From: Longimicrobiales bacterium
GTDB taxonomy: Bacteria > Gemmatimonadota > Gemmatimonadetes > Longimicrobiales > RSA9
Direction of reading: 5' to 3'
DNA: 35,007 bases
NCBI GenBank assembly: GCA_035461765.1
Contig: DATHUY010000158.1
Span: 1-35,007, forward strand
Below, in pieces: positions 1,877 through 31,170 of this stretch. Below the pieces are notes generated by a model. That model was given only the letters and a program-made list of their open reading frames with translations, had not been told where the DNA came from and made no database searches. The number at the start of each line of letters is the position of its first letter. Position 1 is the first letter of the stretch. A program made the translations under genes and the position numbers.

Positions 1877-2099
1877 AGTGGCTGCGGCCAACACGGCCGT
1901 GATCAGGTCTGGAAGCACGGTACACTCGATCTCTGCCTGACGGAACTGGCCCCACCAGTCCTCCGGATTCGCTGTGTAAGGATCAGACGCACGAGGCGTT
2001 CTATAGTCGTGGGGAGGGTCGTGGGAAGCCCGGCGAGAGCGGGGCCGATCACGCTGTGCCTGTCTGCCGTTTCGTCGCCCCATTCCCTGGAGGAATGTG

Positions 2100-5000
2100 A
2101 TGAGAGTCTTGTCCATACTGGCAATGCTGCTCCTCCTGGCTGGCGTCTCCGGCGCTTCCGCCCAGGAGAGGACGATCGTCGGGATCGTCGTCGGATCTGA
2201 CGAACAACCCGTACGCCTCGCGCGCGTCGAGGTCGTGCGAGGTGTGGAGCGCACCGAGACGAATCAGGAGGGCCGCTTCCGCATCGTGACGCGCGCCGGA
2301 GAGGTGACGCTCCGGGTGACGTCCTTCGGCTTCCGGCCACAGGACGTGGTTGTCCCTGCCGGCCAGAACGAAGTCAGGATCGTCATGGAGACGGACGCAC
2401 TCCGGCTCGAGGGGATCGTCGTTACGGGTCAGCAGACCTCGGTGGCGCGGCGGAACCTGGCGAACGCGGTCTCGTCGATCTCGCAGGCAGCGATCGACGA
2501 GGCGCCCCCGATGCAGACGTCGGAGAGTCTCCTTCAGGGCCGGGTGGCCGGCGCCCTCGTCGAGCAGAACTCCGGCGCGCCGGGCGGCGGTATGCAGGTC
2601 CGGCTGCGCGGCGTCTCCACAATCATCGGAGAGTCCGAGCCGCTCTACGTGATCGATGGCGTCGTCATGAGCAACGTCGCGGTCCCGAACGCGCTGAACG
2701 CGGTCACGCTCTCCGCCGGCGGGTCCAACGCTTCGACCCAGGACGCGCCGGTCAACCGGATCGCGGACCTCAACCCTGCCGACATCGAGCGGATCGAGAT
2801 CCTGAAAGGCGCGTCGGCGGCAGCCCTCTACGGATCGCGCGCCGCGAACGGTGTGATCATCATCACCACCCGCCGTGGCAGCCCCGGTGACACGCGCATC
2901 AACTTCACGCAGCGCGTCGGCTTCTTCCAGCGTTCGAACGAGCTGGAGTTCCGGGAGTGGACGTTCGGTGAGGCGGCGGACGTCTTCGGGGCAGCGGCCG
3001 TGGCGCCGTACTTCCCGGCGGGCGCTTCCGACGACGCCCGCCCCCTCCGCACGTTCGACCACCAGGACCAGGTCGCGGGCCAGCAGGATCTCTCGATGGA
3101 GTCGAGCCTCTCCGTGGCGGGCGGCAATGATGACACCCGCTACTTCGTGTCAGGGACGTGGCGGGAGGACGAAGGGGTGATGATCAACACCGGCTACGAG
3201 CGACAGAGCCTCAGGTTGAACCTCGAGCAGGCGCTCGGCGAGCGGTTCCAGGTGAACGTCCACACCAACCTGATGCACACGCTCGCGGCACGCGGCATCA
3301 GCAACAACGACAACAGCGGCACGAGCCCCTGGATGGTCTTCCCGTTCACGCCGAACTTCGCCGACCTGTCATTCGACGAGGCGACGAACCGGTTCCGGGT
3401 CAACCCGTTCGAGCGCAGCAACCCGCTCCAGACGGTGAGCCTGTCGACGAACGACGAGGATGTCTGGCGCCTGCTCGGCGGGGCGACCGGCTCCTTCGAC
3501 GCGTGGAGGAATGCGAATCAGAGAGTGGAGCTCGTCACCACATTCGGCGTCGACTTCTTCACGCAGGAGAACGACCTGTACTTTCCGGCCGTGTTGCAGT
3601 TCGAGCCGAGTGACGGCCTGCCTGGCTCGTCGCTCCTCAGCAACACTAACAACATGGACCTGACGTGGAGCGCGAACGCCGTACACGAGTTTACGGGCGA
3701 CGCCTTCCGCGCGACGACCACGGCCGGCTTCCAGTACGAGGGCCGGGAGCTGAACACTTCGCGGATCTTCGGATTCGGGCTGGCGGGCGGCCAGGAGAAT
3801 GTGGACGCTGCTACGCAGGTCCAGATCCTCGAGAATCGCCAGCGGATCCGGGACCTCGGATTCTTCGCCCAGGAGGAGCTGCTCCTGCTGAACGAGCGGC
3901 TTTTCATCACCGGAGGCATCCGCACCGATCGGAGCAGTGTCAACTCGGATACCGAGGAATTCTTCTGGTATCCGAAGGCGGCCGCCTCTTACCGATTCGA
4001 TGACCTCACCTCGTGGGTGGACGGTGTGAAGCTGCGGGGGGCGTGGGGGCAGAGCGGGAATCAGCCGCTGTTCGGGCAGAAGTTCACTCCGCTGACGGCG
4101 ACCAACAACATCACGGGAATCCCCGGTCTGACCATCCAGGGCACGGTGGCCGCGCCCGACCTCCGGCCCGAACAGCAGGAGGAGATCGAGTTCGGGGCCG
4201 ACGTGACCGGGTTCGGCGGACGGGCACAGCTCACCGCAACCTGGTTCCGGAAGAGCATCACGGACCTGCTCCTCCAGCGGACTCCCGCTCCCTCGACAGG
4301 CTTCGCCACCGAGATCTTCAACGGCGGCAAGCTCGAGGTGAGAGGCTGGGAGCTCGCGCTGGACGCCGCCCCGATCCAGACGGGCAATTTCAGCTGGTTG
4401 AGCCAGACCACGTTCTACGCGGACGAGAGCGAGATCCAGGATCTTCCGGTGCCGGCGTTCAACACCGGTGGTTTCGGCACGTCGCTGGGCGCGTTCCGGA
4501 TCGAGGAGGGAGCCTCCGCCACCCAGATCGTGACGAACGTGGGCGTATGCCCGTCCACAGAATTTGCACAGCTCTGCATTGACGACGATGGCAGTCCGCT
4601 CCCCGACGGCACTCAGATCGTCAGTTCCATCGGCGACGCCGTCCCCGATTTCCGGATCGGATTCTCGAACAACCTGACCTGGGGGCCGTTGAGCCTCGTC
4701 TCGCTCATCGAGTGGGTGGAGGGTCACACCGTGATCAATCTGACGCAGTTCCTGGCCGACGCGGCCGCGAACTCGGCGGACTTCACCACCGCCGGAGTGC
4801 AGCGCATCAGCAACTGGGGCGACGGCGACAGCCGCGGCTACATGGAGGATGCCTCGTTCATCAAGCTGCGCGAGCTGAGCCTCTCCTACGACATCCCGTC
4901 CAGCCTGATCGACAACGCGCTCTTCGGTGGCATCGGCGGGGCTCGCCTGACGCTGAGCGGGCGCAACCTGCACACCTGGACGAGCTACACCGGACTGGAC

Positions 5001-5105
5001 CCGGAGGTGAGCAACTTCGGAAACCAGCCCATCGCGCGGAACATCGACGTGGCGCCGTTCCCACCGAGCCGCAGCTTCTGGCTCGGAGTGGACGTACGGT
5101 TCTGA
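2100..5105 (+). CDS. SusC/RagA-family TonB-linked outer membrane receptor
   Basis: The product is about 1001 residues. It has a signal peptide (MRVLSILAMLLLLAG..., likely cut after ASA), then a carboxypeptidase-regulatory-like beta domain (~25-105). A TonB plug follows, with the SusC hallmark segments SLLQGRVAGALV, VRLRGVST and PLYVIDGV, and then a long beta-barrel. It ends in Phe (LGVDVRF), as expected for BAM-assembled barrels. ATG 2100 is chosen over GTG 2097 because GGAGG lies 6 nt before it. The SusD-type partner starts 48 nt downstream, so the two likely form one operon and one outer-membrane uptake complex powered by TonB. The substrate cannot be told: no glycosidase, peptidase or sensor lies beside them. 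The 223 nt upstream show no clear promoter. Confidence 0.96.
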   Translation: MRVLSILAMLLLLAGVSGASAQERTIVGIVVGSDEQPVRLARVEVVRGVERTETNQEGRFRIVTRAGEVTLRVTSFGFRPQDVVVPAGQNEVRIVMETDALRLEGIVVTGQQTSVARRNLANAVSSISQAAIDEAPPMQTSESLLQGRVAGALVEQNSGAPGGGMQVRLRGVSTIIGESEPLYVIDGVVMSNVAVPNALNAVTLSAGGSNASTQDAPVNRIADLNPADIERIEILKGASAAALYGSRAANGVIIITTRRGSPGDTRINFTQRVGFFQRSNELEFREWTFGEAADVFGAAAVAPYFPAGASDDARPLRTFDHQDQVAGQQDLSMESSLSVAGGNDDTRYFVSGTWREDEGVMINTGYERQSLRLNLEQALGERFQVNVHTNLMHTLAARGISNNDNSGTSPWMVFPFTPNFADLSFDEATNRFRVNPFERSNPLQTVSLSTNDEDVWRLLGGATGSFDAWRNANQRVELVTTFGVDFFTQENDLYFPAVLQFEPSDGLPGSSLLSNTNNMDLTWSANAVHEFTGDAFRATTTAGFQYEGRELNTSRIFGFGLAGGQENVDAATQVQILENRQRIRDLGFFAQEELLLLNERLFITGGIRTDRSSVNSDTEEFFWYPKAAASYRFDDLTSWVDGVKLRGAWGQSGNQPLFGQKFTPLTATNNITGIPGLTIQGTVAAPDLRPEQQEEIEFGADVTGFGGRAQLTATWFRKSITDLLLQRTPAPSTGFATEIFNGGKLEVRGWELALDAAPIQTGNFSWLSQTTFYADESEIQDLPVPAFNTGGFGTSLGAFRIEEGASATQIVTNVGVCPSTEFAQLCIDDDGSPLPDGTQIVSSIGDAVPDFRIGFSNNLTWGPLSLVSLIEWVEGHTVINLTQFLADAAANSADFTTAGVQRISNWGDGDSRGYMEDASFIKLRELSLSYDIPSSLIDNALFGGIGGARLTLSGRNLHTWTSYTGLDPEVSNFGNQPIARNIDVAPFPPSRSFWLGVDVRF

Positions 5106-5153
5106 TGCGGCGAGCGAACGAGTCGACCCGATCAACCCAGCGAGGATGACCCG

Positions 5154-6515
5154 ATGAGAATGAATCTTCTTGCCGCACTCGCCGTCGGAGGCGCCGTCCT
5201 CCTGGCCGGCTGCGCTGACGATCTCTTTACGGTCCCGGACCTGAATAACCCGGCGCTCGACGAGCTGGCGGAAAATCCGACGCGTCTGACCGTGCAGCAG
5301 GCGGCCCAGGGGCTGCTGATCGGCACGAGAAACGGCATGTCGGGCCAGGTGAGCTTCGTCTCCCACCTGGGAATCCTGGGACGCGAGTCCCTGGTCTACG
5401 ACCCATCCGACCCGCGGTACATGGGCCAGATGCTCGATGGCAGACTGGTGAACGGCGATGGCGCCTTCGGCGGAAGCCTGTGGGCCCCGCCGTATGCGAA
5501 CATGCGCCTCGGGTCGGTGCTCCTCGGCGCCCTCGAAATCGTGGACGGCTTCTCGGCCGCCGAGCTGGAAGCGATCCGGGGATTCACGAAATTCATCATG
5601 GCGTACGACCTGCTCCGGGTGATCCTGACCCGTGACGAGAACGGGGCCGTGGCCGTCATCAACCCCGTGGGGGATGAACCCTCGCCGCTGCTCGAGGCAC
5701 CCGCCGTGTACGATCGGATCGAGGCGCTTCTCACCGAGTCTGTGGGGCACCTGCAGGCCGGGAGCGCCGCTTTCCCCTTCCAGCTCACGCCGGGGTTCGC
5801 CGGCTTCGATACGCCCGCGGACCTCGTCCCGGCGGTCCATGCCCTGCACGCCAGGGTGGATGTCTATCGGGGTCAGTATGCCGACGCCATCACCCAGCTC
5901 TCGAATTCGTTCGTCTCTACCGCGGCGGACCTCGATCTGGGCGTCTACCATTCCTTCGGCACCGGGTCCGGCGACATCACGAACGGACTCTTCCAGGGAT
6001 CCGACCCGCAGATCGTCGCGTTTCCTACGATGGACGACGACGCCGACCCCGGTGACCAGCGGGCGGCGTCGAAGCTGGAGATCCTCGCCGTCCCGAAGAC
6101 TCAGGACGGTGTGACCTCCAATCTCCGGTTCACGATCTACAACAGCCTGAGTTCCCCTATTCCGCTGATCCGGAACGAAGAGCTGATCCTGCTGCGCGCG
6201 GAGGCGCGCTGGTTCACCGGGGACATCGTGGGCGCGATGAGTGACCTGAACTTCGTCCGCACCACGTCAGGCGGGCTCACCGGTATCGCCACGCCGGCCA
6301 CCGACGAGCAGTTCATCGACGCGCTTCTCTACGAGCGGCAGTTCTCGCTCATGCACGAAGGCGGACACCGGTGGATCGACCACCGGCGCTTCGATCGGCT
6401 GGACGAGCTGCCGAACCCGCGGCCGACCGACTTCGTGCCGGTCGCCTTCCCGATCCCGCAGGCGGAGTGTCTGGCGCGAAACGCGGGAAACGAGTGCGAG
6501 GCGCCGCTACCGTAG
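5154..6515 (+). CDS. SusD/RagB-family substrate-binding lipoprotein
   Basis: The product is 453 residues. A lipoprotein signal ends at the lipobox LAGC (Cys ~20), so the protein is probably anchored at the outer membrane over the SusC channel. The N-terminal third (DLNNPALDELAENPTRLTVQ) and the C-terminal SusD-like region are characteristic; the latter has RNEELILLRAEARW, ALLYERQFSLMHEGGHRWID and a closing segment with VPVAFPIPQAE. A GAGGA ribosome site lies 8 nt before the ATG. SusD proteins capture ligand for the partner SusC. The length is at the short end for the family. The ligand is unknown. Confidence 0.93.
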   Translation: MRMNLLAALAVGGAVLLAGCADDLFTVPDLNNPALDELAENPTRLTVQQAAQGLLIGTRNGMSGQVSFVSHLGILGRESLVYDPSDPRYMGQMLDGRLVNGDGAFGGSLWAPPYANMRLGSVLLGALEIVDGFSAAELEAIRGFTKFIMAYDLLRVILTRDENGAVAVINPVGDEPSPLLEAPAVYDRIEALLTESVGHLQAGSAAFPFQLTPGFAGFDTPADLVPAVHALHARVDVYRGQYADAITQLSNSFVSTAADLDLGVYHSFGTGSGDITNGLFQGSDPQIVAFPTMDDDADPGDQRAASKLEILAVPKTQDGVTSNLRFTIYNSLSSPIPLIRNEELILLRAEARWFTGDIVGAMSDLNFVRTTSGGLTGIATPATDEQFIDALLYERQFSLMHEGGHRWIDHRRFDRLDELPNPRPTDFVPVAFPIPQAECLARNAGNECEAPLP

Positions 6516-15617: not shown

Positions 15618-15813
15618 AGGAGCAGGACGACGATCCTGAACCGGCGCGGCACACAGGCTTCGGACGAATGGCCCCGTACCGATCAACCAAGGCTCTGGCG
15701 GCCGGCCTCTAGGCACTCCATACTGGATCATCCGTCCGACCCGGCCGTTGCGACCGATCCCCAGCTCCCCGCAATGCCGGACCGGATGACGTCTTCCAGC
15801 ATCCCGGGCTCAC

Positions 15814-17706
15814 ATGAAGGTTCGTCCCGTCGCAGTCGCCGGATGCCTTTCGTGCATCCTGTTCGCGTTCACGCACACACCTGCACCGCCTGCGTCACGC
15901 ACGTTTGCGCCTGACAGCGTGCTGCCGAACGACAATCGCACGCCCGGCGGCAGCATCGTGAACGGGACGACGGAGCTGCATCTCGTCGCGCAGCTCGCAG
16001 CCTGGCGACCGGACCTCGATGTCGACAGCGCAGCCACGGTCCAGGCATTCGCCGAGACGGGCGGCGCGCCGCGCATTCCCGGACCGCTTCTGCGCGCGGA
16101 GCAGGGAACGGATGTGCGCGTCACGATCGCGAACGACATCCCGGACTCGACGCTCATCGTCCATGGCATGCGTGCGGGCACGGTCGCGGACGATACGATC
16201 GTCGTGCGGCCCGGTACGCGTCGAGAAGTAACGTTCCGCGCGGGCGCACCCGGCACATACCTGTACTGGGGGACGACGAGCGGCAAAGTGCGCATCGTGG
16301 ACCGCACCGGCCGCGACGGCCAGCTGACGGGCGCGATCGTGATCGATCCGACCGGTATCGCGCCGGATCCGGCGGAACGCATCTTCGTCATCACCGTGCT
16401 CGACATCCTGCCGGACACCACGAAGCCGCCGCCGCTCGAGGACATCTTCGAGCTGGCGATCAACGGGCGCTCGTGGCCGCACAGCGAGCGTATCGATCAG
16501 ACTGTCGGTGACACGGTGCGCTGGCGCTGGCTGAACGGCAGTTACCTGACGCACCCAATGCATCTGCATGGCTTCCATTTCCGTGTTCAGGCAAAGGGCG
16601 ACGGTGCGGCGGATACGACGTACACAGATGCCGACGCACGCGAGGTAGTCACCGAGTTCATGCGGAGCGGGAGCACGTTCGCGATGGAGTGGACGCCGAC
16701 GCGTGCGGGCAACTGGCTTTTCCACTGTCACATGGCCGCGCACATCACGCCGTTCCCGGCACGTCCCGATTCACTTCAGCAGCACGACGCGCACGACGTG
16801 GTGCAGCATGCTCTGCAGGGCATGGCGGGGCTCGTACTCGGCATCCGAACGACCGATCGCGCCGAGCCTCATGCCGTGTCGCTCACCGAGCCGGTGCAGC
16901 ACCTGCGACTCCTGATGCAGCAGGCCGCTCCCACCGAGGACCCGCTGCTTCGTGCGACGGGGTACGTGCTGGTGGCAGGCGATGAGCCTGCACCGGACTC
17001 GGTGAGCGTTCCGGGGCCACCTCTGCTGCTCACGCGTGGCGAGACGACCGCGATCACTGTCGTGAATCGCACGGGCCAGCTGACGACGGTACACTGGCAC
17101 GGCATGGAGCTCGAGAGCATCTACGATGGCGTCGCGGGCTGGAGCGGTGCCGGTTCCAACCTCGCGCCGCTGATTGCGCCGGGCGACTCTTTCACCGTCG
17201 CATTCACACCGCCGCGTTCCGGCACGTACATCTACCACACGCACATGGACGAGGGGCTGCAGCTCGCGACGGGCGCGTACGGTCCGCTCATCGTGCTGGA
17301 CCCGGGTCAGCGCTTCGACCCCGAGACGGACCTGATCTTCATGATGGCACGCTCCGTCGACGGCGGCACCAACCAGCAGGCGATCAATGGACGCCACGCA
17401 CCGCCGCCGCTCACGCTCCGCGTGGGCACCACCTACCGGCTGCGCTTCGTCAATATCATGCCGACCGCGCCCATCGATCTGGAGCTGCACGCCGATTCGA
17501 CTCTGCTCAGCTGGATGCCGATCTCGAAGGACGGCGCATGGGTGCCCACCTCGCAGCGCGTGCCCGGACCATCGCGACAGTGGGGCTTCGGCGTCGGGGA
17601 GACCCGGGACTTCCTGTGGACGCCGGATCGCCCGATGGACGCCGTGATCTCTGCCGGGAACGAAGTCGACGGCTTCATGATCCGCCAGCTATTGACCGTG
17701 CGCTGA
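15814..17706 (+). CDS. Four-domain multicopper oxidase with permuted copper motifs
   Basis: The product is 630 residues with an N-terminal hydrophobic export signal. Four cupredoxin-like domains can be placed: ~45-180 without copper ligands (VHGMRA and YLYWGT stand where ligands would be), ~185-345 with the type-1/trinuclear motifs HPMHLHG (247-253) and HCHMAAH (304-310), ~385-500 with HWHG (427-430) and YHTHMDEG (474-481), and ~505-630 without ligands. In laccases and CueO the HWHG and H-x-H motifs come first and the HPxHLH and HCH motifs last; here the order is reversed. All ligand groups are present, so an active trinuclear centre is plausible. The position 10 residues after the type-1 Cys is Pro, not the axial Met of CueO. 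The substrate is unknown (phenols, metals or lignin-like compounds are possible). Confidence 0.9.
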   Translation: MKVRPVAVAGCLSCILFAFTHTPAPPASRTFAPDSVLPNDNRTPGGSIVNGTTELHLVAQLAAWRPDLDVDSAATVQAFAETGGAPRIPGPLLRAEQGTDVRVTIANDIPDSTLIVHGMRAGTVADDTIVVRPGTRREVTFRAGAPGTYLYWGTTSGKVRIVDRTGRDGQLTGAIVIDPTGIAPDPAERIFVITVLDILPDTTKPPPLEDIFELAINGRSWPHSERIDQTVGDTVRWRWLNGSYLTHPMHLHGFHFRVQAKGDGAADTTYTDADAREVVTEFMRSGSTFAMEWTPTRAGNWLFHCHMAAHITPFPARPDSLQQHDAHDVVQHALQGMAGLVLGIRTTDRAEPHAVSLTEPVQHLRLLMQQAAPTEDPLLRATGYVLVAGDEPAPDSVSVPGPPLLLTRGETTAITVVNRTGQLTTVHWHGMELESIYDGVAGWSGAGSNLAPLIAPGDSFTVAFTPPRSGTYIYHTHMDEGLQLATGAYGPLIVLDPGQRFDPETDLIFMMARSVDGGTNQQAINGRHAPPPLTLRVGTTYRLRFVNIMPTAPIDLELHADSTLLSWMPISKDGAWVPTSQRVPGPSRQWGFGVGETRDFLWTPDRPMDAVISAGNEVDGFMIRQLLTVR

Positions 17707-27676: not shown

Positions 27677-30442
27677 TCACCCGCGAAGCAGCGCGCGCGC
27701 TGCCCGTGTGTCGGGATGTTCCTCACCCAGTCCGCTGGTGAGCGGTGGCAGCGCGCGCTCCAGGTCGGCGCGTGCGGCCACCGAATCTCCGAGCTCCAGC
27801 CGCGCGCGTGCGCGCAGCAACAGGGTCTGGCCGACGTATCCGCTCCGGGCGGGATCACCGGCCACTCGCGCGGCCAGGTCATGGTAGTCTGTTGCGTAGC
27901 GTTCGGCGGAACGCGCATCGCCCGTGCCGAGTGCAACAGTGGCTGCGACGCCGAGCGTGGGCGGGAGATCGGGCGCGTCCAGACGTTCGGGGTAGCCGAT
28001 CTTCGCGAGCTGCGCATTGATGGCCGCACGAGCGGTGGCGCCATCGCCTCGGCCGAGCAGAAGAAGCGTACGCGTGAGTGCGCTGTATGCGAGCAGCCGC
28101 TCGTTGGCATTCACGGAGCTGCGGAGATGGGCTTCCGCGGAATCGAGACGGGCCTCCGCCTCGTCGTATCGCTCGAGATGCACGAGAGCCCGGCCCAGAA
28201 TCGCCCGTGACTCGGCGGCCACGCGCTGGTTGCCGGCGGCGACGCTCTTCACGATATCCTCGTCGATCAGCCGGGCTGCCTCCTCGTATCGGCCCAGACG
28301 GATGAGACTGGCGCCGTACGACGTGATGAACCCGGGCGGCGCTGCGCCGGATGCTTCGAGCGCACCGATCCGCTCGCGCAGCGCGCTTCGGATCTCGAAA
28401 CCCGCCCTGACTTCGCCCATCATCTCGAGGAGTGATGCGCGATTCAGCGATACCACGACGTATCCCAGTGTGGCGCCGCGACCCGACTCGGACATGATCC
28501 GCAGGATCGAGTCGTTCAACGCGGCAACCTTTGCTATCTGCCGTTCGTTCCAGTACAGGTTCGACAGCTCGTTGCTGACGTGGAGCACGTTCTCCACACC
28601 GGCGACGGGACTCCCGGCCAGCGACGCCTTTGCTTCCAATAGCGTCTCGATCGCACGGGTGCGGTTTCCATCCGCCTCGAGGATCGCTGCACGAGCGCGC
28701 GCGCACGAGACGAACGTGTCCGTCGATGGCGTGGTGCCGGCCAGGATGGCGGCAGCCTCCTCGACCTGAGCCCGGGCCGCAGCAGGGTCGTCGCGATAGC
28801 GCAGCCGGGCGGCGCCGCACAGCGCGGCCGCCAGCAGGTCAGCATCGTCATTGCTACGTGCGGCCTGTTCCACCCGGCCCAGCAGGTCGAGCATCTTCGC
28901 CGTTTCACCGAGGCTGAAATATCCGTTCGCGAGCATCAGGAGCATCCGACCCATGAACGGCGGCTCGGTGCCGTATTGCCGGTCGAGCATGTCCACGCCG
29001 CGGTCCAGCAGCTCGACGAGCGTGAGCGCTCTGCCGCCCGGTCCGATCTCCGACAGCAGCAGCTGCATGAACTCGTTCGCCGCCTGCACGCGCTGCTGCT
29101 GGTACACGGCCGCATCGCGCTGACGCCGCGCTTCCACACTCTGATGCGTCGTCATCGCCGTCGATCCGAGCAGGGCGAGCACCACGACCGCGGCCGCAAT
29201 CACACCGCTCCGATAGCGACGTACGAACTTGCGTGCGCGATACCGCATCGTCGGCGGTTGCGCGGTGACCGCCTGGTGATCGAGGTATCGCCGCAGATCG
29301 GCTGCGAACTCCGCGACCGTGGCGTAGCGCTCGGCGGGCTCGACGGCGAGTGCCTTGCGCACGATGGTGTCGAGATCGCTCCGCAACGTGCGCAGCAGCT
29401 CGGCCGGCGAGACGGCACGCTGCTGCGCCGTGGCCGACAGCGTCGCCGTCTCACCTCGCACCGCAAGGGCCGACGCGAGCGTCGGTGGCTCCCGCGTCGC
29501 CGCCTCGCACAGCTCCGCATAGGAACGGATCGGTTCCGTCCGGCGCGGATGGTGACCGGCGACGAGCACGTAGAGCAGAAGCCCGAGCGAATAGACGTCC
29601 GCGGCCGTCGTCACGTCAGCGCCCGTCAGCTGCTCCGGCGCTGCGAACTCCGGTGTCAGCGACACGCCGAGCTCGCGCGTCAGCTCTGCACCGTCAGCGG
29701 CCACGCTCGTCTCGTCGTCCGCCAGGAGCTTCGCGACGCCGAAGTCCAGCAGCCTGACGGTACCATCGTGCGTCACGAGCATGTTCGACGGTTTGATGTC
29801 GCGATGCACGACGAGGTGTGCGTGCGCGTGTGCGACGGCGTCCAGCGCCTGAAGGAAGAGCTCGATGCGCTTGCGCACAGACAGCCGGTGTCCGTCGCAG
29901 TAGCGATCGATCGGCGCGCCGTCGATGTGCTCCAGCACCAGATACGGCACATGGTCGGGCGCAACACCGGCGTCGATGAGGCGTGCGATGCCCGGGTGTG
30001 TGAGGCGGGCGAGGTAACGACCCTCGCGGGCGAACCGCTCGAGCGCCGCGCCTCCTGCCGCACGGTTCAGCAGCTTGATGGCGACCTGCCCTTCGAAGCG
30101 GCCATCACTCCGTTCCGCCCGCCACACGACGCCCATGCCGCCCCGGCCGATCGGCTCGATGAGCGTATAGGCGCCCAGACGCTGGCCGGACCGAACGAGG
30201 TCTGAGCGATCCGCGGCTTCGTCCCTGTCGCCAGTCAGAAGGCTGGCGGCGCCGATCCGATCCGACAGGTCGCCGAAATACTGCTCGGAGGCGTCTGCGG
30301 CAGACAGCAGTGCATCCACCTCGCGGCGCATCGCATCATCATCGCCGCATGCACGCTTGATGAACTCGATCCGGTTGCCGGCATCCAGCTCCGCTGCCTC
30401 CGCGAAGATCTGCTCGGCGCGACGTGCACGCGATTCGCTCAT
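27677..30442 (-). CDS. Membrane Ser/Thr protein kinase with C-terminal TPR-like region
   Basis: The product is 921 residues from ATG 30442, chosen because GGAGAGGG lies just before it; an ATG at 30457 overlaps that site. The kinase domain (~91-385) has all key residues: GRGGMG (99-104), Lys123 in VAIK, HRDIKPSN (213-220), DFG (233-235) and APE (268-270). One membrane segment lies at ~412-430 (GVIAAAVVVLALLGSTAM). The extracytoplasmic part is built of helical pairs like TPR units (RYEEAARLIDED, RYDEAEARLDSAEAHLR, RARLELGDSVAARADLERAL). It likely senses an outside signal and phosphorylates cytosolic targets. The upstream sigma gene ends 71 nt before it, in the same direction, so the sigma factor is the obvious candidate target. 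Confidence 0.95.
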   Translation of the reverse strand: MSESRARRAEQIFAEAAELDAGNRIEFIKRACGDDDAMRREVDALLSAADASEQYFGDLSDRIGAASLLTGDRDEAADRSDLVRSGQRLGAYTLIEPIGRGGMGVVWRAERSDGRFEGQVAIKLLNRAAGGAALERFAREGRYLARLTHPGIARLIDAGVAPDHVPYLVLEHIDGAPIDRYCDGHRLSVRKRIELFLQALDAVAHAHAHLVVHRDIKPSNMLVTHDGTVRLLDFGVAKLLADDETSVAADGAELTRELGVSLTPEFAAPEQLTGADVTTAADVYSLGLLLYVLVAGHHPRRTEPIRSYAELCEAATREPPTLASALAVRGETATLSATAQQRAVSPAELLRTLRSDLDTIVRKALAVEPAERYATVAEFAADLRRYLDHQAVTAQPPTMRYRARKFVRRYRSGVIAAAVVVLALLGSTAMTTHQSVEARRQRDAAVYQQQRVQAANEFMQLLLSEIGPGGRALTLVELLDRGVDMLDRQYGTEPPFMGRMLLMLANGYFSLGETAKMLDLLGRVEQAARSNDDADLLAAALCGAARLRYRDDPAAARAQVEEAAAILAGTTPSTDTFVSCARARAAILEADGNRTRAIETLLEAKASLAGSPVAGVENVLHVSNELSNLYWNERQIAKVAALNDSILRIMSESGRGATLGYVVVSLNRASLLEMMGEVRAGFEIRSALRERIGALEASGAAPPGFITSYGASLIRLGRYEEAARLIDEDIVKSVAAGNQRVAAESRAILGRALVHLERYDEAEARLDSAEAHLRSSVNANERLLAYSALTRTLLLLGRGDGATARAAINAQLAKIGYPERLDAPDLPPTLGVAATVALGTGDARSAERYATDYHDLAARVAGDPARSGYVGQTLLLRARARLELGDSVAARADLERALPPLTSGLGEEHPDTRAARALLRG

Positions 30443-30513
30443 TTCAGCCCTCTCCATGTTGACGGTGGGGAAGGGCGGACGTCACCCGTCAACTCATACA
30501 GAAAAAGAGGCCG

Positions 30514-31086
30514 TCAGGGATCAGGGATGTCGGATCGCAGCCTCTGGTAGAGCCTCGTCGAGGCAATGCGCCATTCGCGCTTGACCGTTGCCGCAGACAG
30601 GTCGAGCGCCTGCGCCACCTCGTCGACCGTCATGCCGCCAAAGACGCGGCACTCGACGATGCGGGCGCGTCGCGCATCCTCGACCTCCAGCTGCGTAAGC
30701 AGCTCGTCCAGCGCGAGCAGCTCGTCGAATGTGGCCTCCGCGACGAGCGAATCCTCCTCGAGCGTCACGTGCGTCGCCCCGCCCCCCCGCTTCGCAGCAC
30801 TGCGCCGCTCCGCGTAGTTGATCAGCACCTGCCGCATCGCCTGTGCTGCCGTCGCGAAGAAATGTGTGCGGTTGATGAAGCTGATGGACTCCCGGCCCGC
30901 GAGCCTGATATAGGCTTCGTGGATCAGCGCCGTCGTGTTGAGCGTGTCATCGCCCTGCCAGCGGCGCCTTTGTGCATGGGCGACGTGCCTGAGCTCGTCG
31001 TAGACGGCGGTGAAGAGGTTATCCGCGGCGTTCGCCTCACCTGCGCGTGCGCGGTCCAGCAGGACGGTAATGGATTCCCCGGTCAT
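30514..31086 (-). CDS. ECF-type sigma factor upstream of the kinase (Sigma70_ECF/TIGR02999 type)
   Basis: The product is 190 residues from ATG 31086 (MTGESITVLLDRARAGEANA); a longer frame to 31158 has no family match. Region 2 shows LFTAVYDELRHVAHAQRRR and LNTTALIHEAYIRLAG; the linker has QAMRQVLINYAERRSAAKRGGG; region 4 has VECRVFGGMTVDEVAQALDL and SAATVKREW. It is clearly related to the sigma factor at 25006-25572. It has the same direction as the kinase and a gap of 71 nt, so the pair is a probable operon. Members of similar groups are activated by kinase phosphorylation rather than by an anti-sigma factor. Confidence 0.94.
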   Translation of the reverse strand: MTGESITVLLDRARAGEANAADNLFTAVYDELRHVAHAQRRRWQGDDTLNTTALIHEAYIRLAGRESISFINRTHFFATAAQAMRQVLINYAERRSAAKRGGGATHVTLEEDSLVAEATFDELLALDELLTQLEVEDARRARIVECRVFGGMTVDEVAQALDLSAATVKREWRIASTRLYQRLRSDIPDP

Positions 31087-31170
31087 CGGCTTGCTGCCAC
31101 GGTGGGAAGATGGGCCACGACCACTCCAATGATGCCCTGGACGCAACGGGAGCGGCAAGGGTGACGGCGG

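Follow-up and report, generated by a model that had tools for sequence, protein, structure and literature searches.

A conserved four-domain multicopper oxidase of Gemmatimonadota with reversed copper motif order and a probable trinuclear site between its two central domains

The window analysed in this study is an entire contig of 35,007 nucleotides from the 4.68 Mb genome of a Longimicrobiales bacterium. A gene for a four-domain multicopper oxidase lies at positions 15814..17706 of the plus strand (630 residues plus stop), as indicated by the open reading frame, Pfam matches and 37 full-length relatives that are 35-52% identical. The single open frame, together with relatives in dozens of genomes that share the layout, rules out an artefact of assembly or a frameshift. 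The antisense open reading frame at 15810-16463(-) was set aside because Pfam and conservation both support the plus strand. The oxidase gene is flanked by genes for a PIN-domain protein (upstream) and a six-bladed beta-propeller protein. Elsewhere in the window, positions 2097-6515 encode a TonB-dependent receptor, which has a carboxypeptidase-regulatory domain, and then a SusD-family protein. The two form a pair for nutrient uptake of Bacteroidota style, here in a member of Gemmatimonadota. The minus strand carries a large Ser/Thr protein kinase with TPR beside an ECF-type sigma factor (27677-31158).

The first 27 residues of the oxidase (15814..15894) read as a Sec-type signal peptide, with KVR followed by a hydrophobic stretch and APPA, and have low pLDDT in the structural model. 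The 630-residue product is thus predicted to be exported to the periplasm or cell surface. Four cupredoxin domains follow. D1 (residues 40-182, 15931..16359) is an A-type domain that has lost its trinuclear ligands, and D2 (residues 183-352, 16360..16869) is a B-type domain in which the type-1 site and one half of the trinuclear site are located. The other trinuclear half lies in D3 (residues 353-500, 16870..17313), an A-type domain matching laccase domain 1. The chain ends with D4 (residues 501-630, 17314..17703), a B-type domain without copper ligands that matches laccase domain 2. Assignment to the cupredoxin fold is supported by Foldseek and by the best Pfam matches, Cu-oxidase_2 (PF07731) at residues 213-311 and Cu-oxidase_3 (PF07732) at residues 398-497. 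Cu-oxidase_2 is normally C-terminal and Cu-oxidase_3 normally N-terminal; in the frame at 15814-17706(+) their order is swapped.

The four copper motifs appear in the same reversed order. HPMHLHG (residues 247-253, 16552..16572) would supply H247 to the type-1, H250 to the type-2 and H252 to the type-3 copper by the family rule, and HCHMAAH (residues 304-310, 16723..16743) the type-3 ligands H304 and H306 and the type-1 ligands C305 and H310. These are followed by HWHG (residues 427-430, 17092..17103; H427 type 2, H429 type 3) and YHTH (residues 474-477, 17233..17244; H475 and H477 type 3). A scan of genome contigs yielded 52 loci, 37 of them with full-length relatives that share this motif order. 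In a first alignment, comprising 38 full-length members that are 35-52% identical to the query, the eleven His and Cys ligands (H247, H250, H252, H304, C305, H306, H310, H427, H429, H475 and H477) were invariant in 38/38, as were the columns of M337 and D438. The same holds for a larger set of 75 members, in which all twelve ligand positions, namely the eight trinuclear-site histidines, the type-1 His, Cys and His and M337, are invariant together with D438 (75/75). The hallmark of multicopper oxidases, four copper motif groups providing eight trinuclear histidines and a type-1 His/Cys/His set, is thereby present in every member, and a chance arrangement of motifs can be dismissed on the grounds of this invariance.

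An earlier note on this DNA, made from the sequence alone, had placed the four motifs at these residues, described their order as reversed with all four ligand groups kept, called for a search for homologues sharing that order and considered the outer domains free of ligands. The alignments and Pfam matches bear out this description. None of the 75 members has a copper motif in D1 or D4, which confirms that the outer domains are ligand-free. In D1, IVHG stands where HxHG would be expected and Y-W-G-T where YHxH would be expected; of the would-be ligand positions I115, H117, W152 and T154, that of H117 alone is often His (37/75). Asp438 (17125..17127), invariant in 75/75, lies nine residues past H429, a position we take to correspond to Asp112 of CueO, which is likewise nine residues after the His. 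Some oxidases also carry an acidic residue just after the type-1 His, e.g. Glu506 in CueO; this second site is mostly V, I or M in the four-domain family.

With regard to the axial ligand of the type-1 copper, the earlier note had remarked on F-P rather than Met after the type-1 Cys, where a Met would be expected ten residues past C305. This point is probably wrong, since Met337 (16822..16824) likely serves as the axial ligand and has been shifted by a loop, so that a missing axial Met was dropped as an explanation. Met337 is invariant in 75/75 members, belongs to an M-A-G-L-V motif and directly precedes a beta strand (residues 341-347) in the model. The strand that would normally bear the axial Met appears displaced by the inserted loop, which puts M337 about 22 residues further downstream. 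The 26-residue loop between H310 and M337 (16744..16821) is poorly predicted (pLDDT <50 at residues 315-329), and its counterparts between the second type-1 His and the M-A-G-L-V motif range from 12 to 48 residues in 38 members. In the query the loop is rich in His and Asp (QQHDAHDVVQH) and might contact a metal or substrate.

We used profile comparisons to relate the four domains to each other and to known oxidases. The two halves of the protein are colinear homologues (hhalign 99.1%, E 8e-19 for D1-D2 against D3-D4). Single-domain comparisons gave 97.9% for D1 and D3, 95.9% for D2 and D4 and 8.6% for D1 and D2. D2 and D3 likewise scored 95.9% but over a shorter stretch, as is usual for cupredoxins. 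Either half aligns along a complete two-domain oxidase such as a 443-aa protein of Chroococcidiopsis (99.8-99.9%), and D1-D2 spans a whole two-domain oxidase at 99.9% (E 6e-31). Among ten three-domain oxidases, domain 1 matched D3 best (99.2-99.8%) and domain 3 matched D2 best (98.3-99.6%), and in 7/10 the ligand-free domain 2 matched D4 at 92-97%. A match between D3-D4 and laccase domains 1-2 extends across the ligand-free part. Because of these colinear halves, two-domain matches and laccase domain correspondences, the predicted architecture is A*-B-A-B*, where the star marks lost ligands. Relative to the laccase series d1-d2-d3 (A-B*-B), the domain order corresponds to D3-D4-D2 and is, as judged from these profiles, cyclically permuted, with one more A domain at the N-terminus.

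A full-length AlphaFold2 model based on the family alignment reached a pLDDT of 85 and a pTM of 0.87. Foldseek searches of the PDB with this model returned six-domain ring proteins first (factor V-like subunit, ceruloplasmin, factor VIII), with TMq values of 0.62-0.64 for ceruloplasmin and 0.63 for the MnxG complex 9bxa at rank 18; at rmsd values of 6-8 A, TM scores around 0.6 indicate a shared arrangement and no exact superposition. Three-domain laccases reached a TMq of only about 0.33. The D2-D3 fragment modelled alone (pLDDT 84, pTM 0.81) gave TMq values of 0.49-0.63 for ceruloplasmin and factor V/VIII chains and of 0.28-0.34 for two-domain oxidases, nitrite reductases and laccases. The fragment thus resembles ring proteins and not intrachain pairs, and D2 and D3 are modelled as neighbouring ring units (B-A), unlike the A-B pair within a unit. 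In two-domain trimers, the trinuclear centre sits where domain 1 of a chain meets domain 2 of its neighbour (PMC13151041), i.e. at the same B-A interface as that of D2 and D3. The suggestion made from sequence that a trinuclear site is rebuilt between domains 2 and 3 is, at the level of domain packing, most likely correct in light of ligand conservation and the ring-type packing of both models.

Taken together, the oxidase is real, conserved and probably active, and it is predicted to bind copper. Substrate electrons would enter at the type-1 copper in D2 (H247, C305, H310 and probably M337), where one-electron substrate oxidations would take place by established multicopper oxidase chemistry. 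The electrons would then pass via the His-Cys-His element H304-C305-H306 to a trinuclear cluster held by eight histidines at the D2/D3 interface (H250, H252, H304 and H306 from D2; H427, H429, H475 and H477 from D3). At this cluster O2 would undergo four-electron reduction to water, a step for which Asp438 is a candidate relay of protons. D1 and D4 would have a structural role. We consider this reading as a whole, an exported A*-B-A-B* oxidase with an active D2/D3 site and structural outer domains that most likely arose by tandem fusion, to be very probable. Two points speak against it: the mostly non-acidic residue just after the type-1 His, and the place of the putative axial Met behind a loop that is poorly resolved in the model.

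As to origin, a tandem pair of two-domain units is most likely the simplest history. Two such units would have fused, the single complete B-A site between them would have persisted, and the A and B sites left without use would have decayed, the D1-type site in one unit and the D2-type site in the other. Since the halves are homologous and colinear (D1 with D3, D2 with D4), tandem fusion with complementary site loss explains the protein better than permutation. The more specific proposal that the family is a separate four-domain class, formed independently from two fused two-domain units and representing a surviving example of the tandem intermediate postulated between two-domain and three- or six-domain oxidases, with complementary loss of surplus sites, is one we regard as slightly less likely than not.

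A second possibility, which we regard as unlikely, is that the protein is a shortened MnxG-type oxidase that lost its last two domains and inherited the D2/D3 site. Bacterial six-domain oxidases as well as the Chlamydomonas and Dunaliella ferroxidases place their trinuclear histidines in domains 2 and 3, and the bacterial proteins have a type-1 site in domain 2 only (PMC3600357). The query shares this MnxG-type trait, with trinuclear ligands in D2 and D3 and type 1 in D2, and MnxG of Bacillus SG-1 has the same motif order, C and D before A and B (PMC3618234), in addition to the structural match of 9bxa. However, MnxG was absent among the best matches listed in profile searches of PDB sequences, where laccases and ceruloplasmin were present. 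Further, none of the 75 members was seen to be a longer protein with additional cupredoxin domains, and nearly all of their chains stop after D4.

True circular permutation of a laccase-like oxidase, in which the type-1 domain moved from the C-terminus to a place ahead of the N-terminal domain, with D1 as a later addition, seems rather improbable. The earlier note had suggested a permutation, and the term is fair for domain order because laccase domains d1, d2 and d3 match D3, D4 and D2, the ligand-free d2 included; the alignment of D3-D4 with laccase domains 1-2 also agrees with it. As an event, however, a permutation is not needed given the homologous and colinear halves. D1 is moreover an A-type domain contiguous with D2, and the resulting D1-D2 looks like a complete two-domain unit, which permutation alone does not predict. 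Finally, a fusion of two inactive halves into a non-catalytic protein like coagulation factor V would account for two of four domains having lost all or nearly all ligands, but is extremely improbable because every ligand and Asp438 are fully conserved across 35-52% identity and decay would not leave just one full set intact.

Family members were found in 89/298 sampled Gemmatimonadota genomes (43/119 genera), many of them in multiple copies, and in only 4/297 Acidobacteriota genomes. Beyond these phyla, scattered members come from Eremiobacterota and from a bin labelled Steroidobacter. In the contig collection, the relatives closest to the window belong to Gemmatimonadota. One genome contains five copies; the position of its match is that of the match on a plasmid of Gemmatirosa kalamazoonensis KBS708. 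Among the matches listed, a plasmid search returned a contiguous D2-D3 pair only in Gemmatirosa, and a family search around Marivita returned only three-domain-like matches. In a relative's genome, two four-domain oxidase copies adjoin each other in tandem (G035:C582:17074-20861), and one member (L040:5950-8385) continues for about 200 aa beyond D4, a C-terminal extension with no Pfam match.

No conserved gene neighbourhood was found around 30 loci, the most common family among 57 neighbouring proteins being Pkinase, with 5. As neighbours are not conserved and the gene in the window lies between a PIN-domain and a beta-propeller protein, genomic context points to no substrate. The three loci nearest in sequence to the window's gene each have a small upstream gene of the same direction with a retropepsin-like aspartyl protease match (L001:5284-5871, L002:4762-5262 and L003:5253-5753), and these small genes are mutually 76-78% identical.

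The family is widespread in soil Gemmatimonadota, rare elsewhere and apparently undescribed. Current literature assigns multicopper oxidases two, three or six domains (PMC13151041, 2026; PMC3600357), and a 2011 survey of bacterial laccase-like genes, in the portion of its text available, covers two- and three-domain forms only (PMC3192119). We found no description of a four-domain multicopper oxidase class in open-licence papers, where absence is no proof. Whether the class had been described was a question raised from the sequence; the four-domain class itself appears undescribed, whereas the reversed motif order and a D2/D3 site are not new, being known from MnxG-type oxidases and algal ferroxidases. 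As a conserved class that occurs in about 30% of the sampled Gemmatimonadota genomes and reaches five copies in a cultured species, the four-domain proteins add a size class and allow the model of evolution from two to three or six domains to be tested. The domain order of these proteins shows that one copper site can be built with the domain chain opened elsewhere. The family would also bear on copper or metal oxidation and phenol chemistry of soil bacteria.

Compared with known systems, the query has the four motifs and their ligands in common with three-domain oxidases (laccase, CueO, CotA, ascorbate oxidase), whose domains 1, 2 and 3 correspond to D3, D4 and D2. Those proteins have three domains with the HxH motifs N-terminal and HPxHxH/HCH C-terminal, whereas the query has four domains in reversed order, a D1 without counterpart and low whole-chain similarity. 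Type B two-domain oxidases (small laccase SLAC, CjMCO) can be aligned as whole units to each half of the query and, like it, have the type-1 site in the second domain and the trinuclear site at the inter-unit B-A interface. They form homotrimers in which three active sites are made between chains that each carry complete ligand sets. With four domains and complementary ligand loss, the query falls outside the type B definition; a single chain would provide the two sides of one site, and the remaining site halves have been lost. Ceruloplasmin, hephaestin and factor V/VIII, the best structural matches, resemble the query as rings of A-B repeats with partial site loss but have six domains and, in the ring, a trinuclear site between D1 and D6 (PMC3600357). 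The six-domain bacterial oxidases (MnxG) and the algal Fox1 and Fox2 share the query's site layout, with motifs C and D ahead of A and B, the trinuclear site between D2 and D3 and the type-1 site in D2. The best listed sequence matches show no close kinship with them. The bacterial six-domain set spans 1217-2681 aa (PMC3600357), compared with four domains in about 600-660 aa here.
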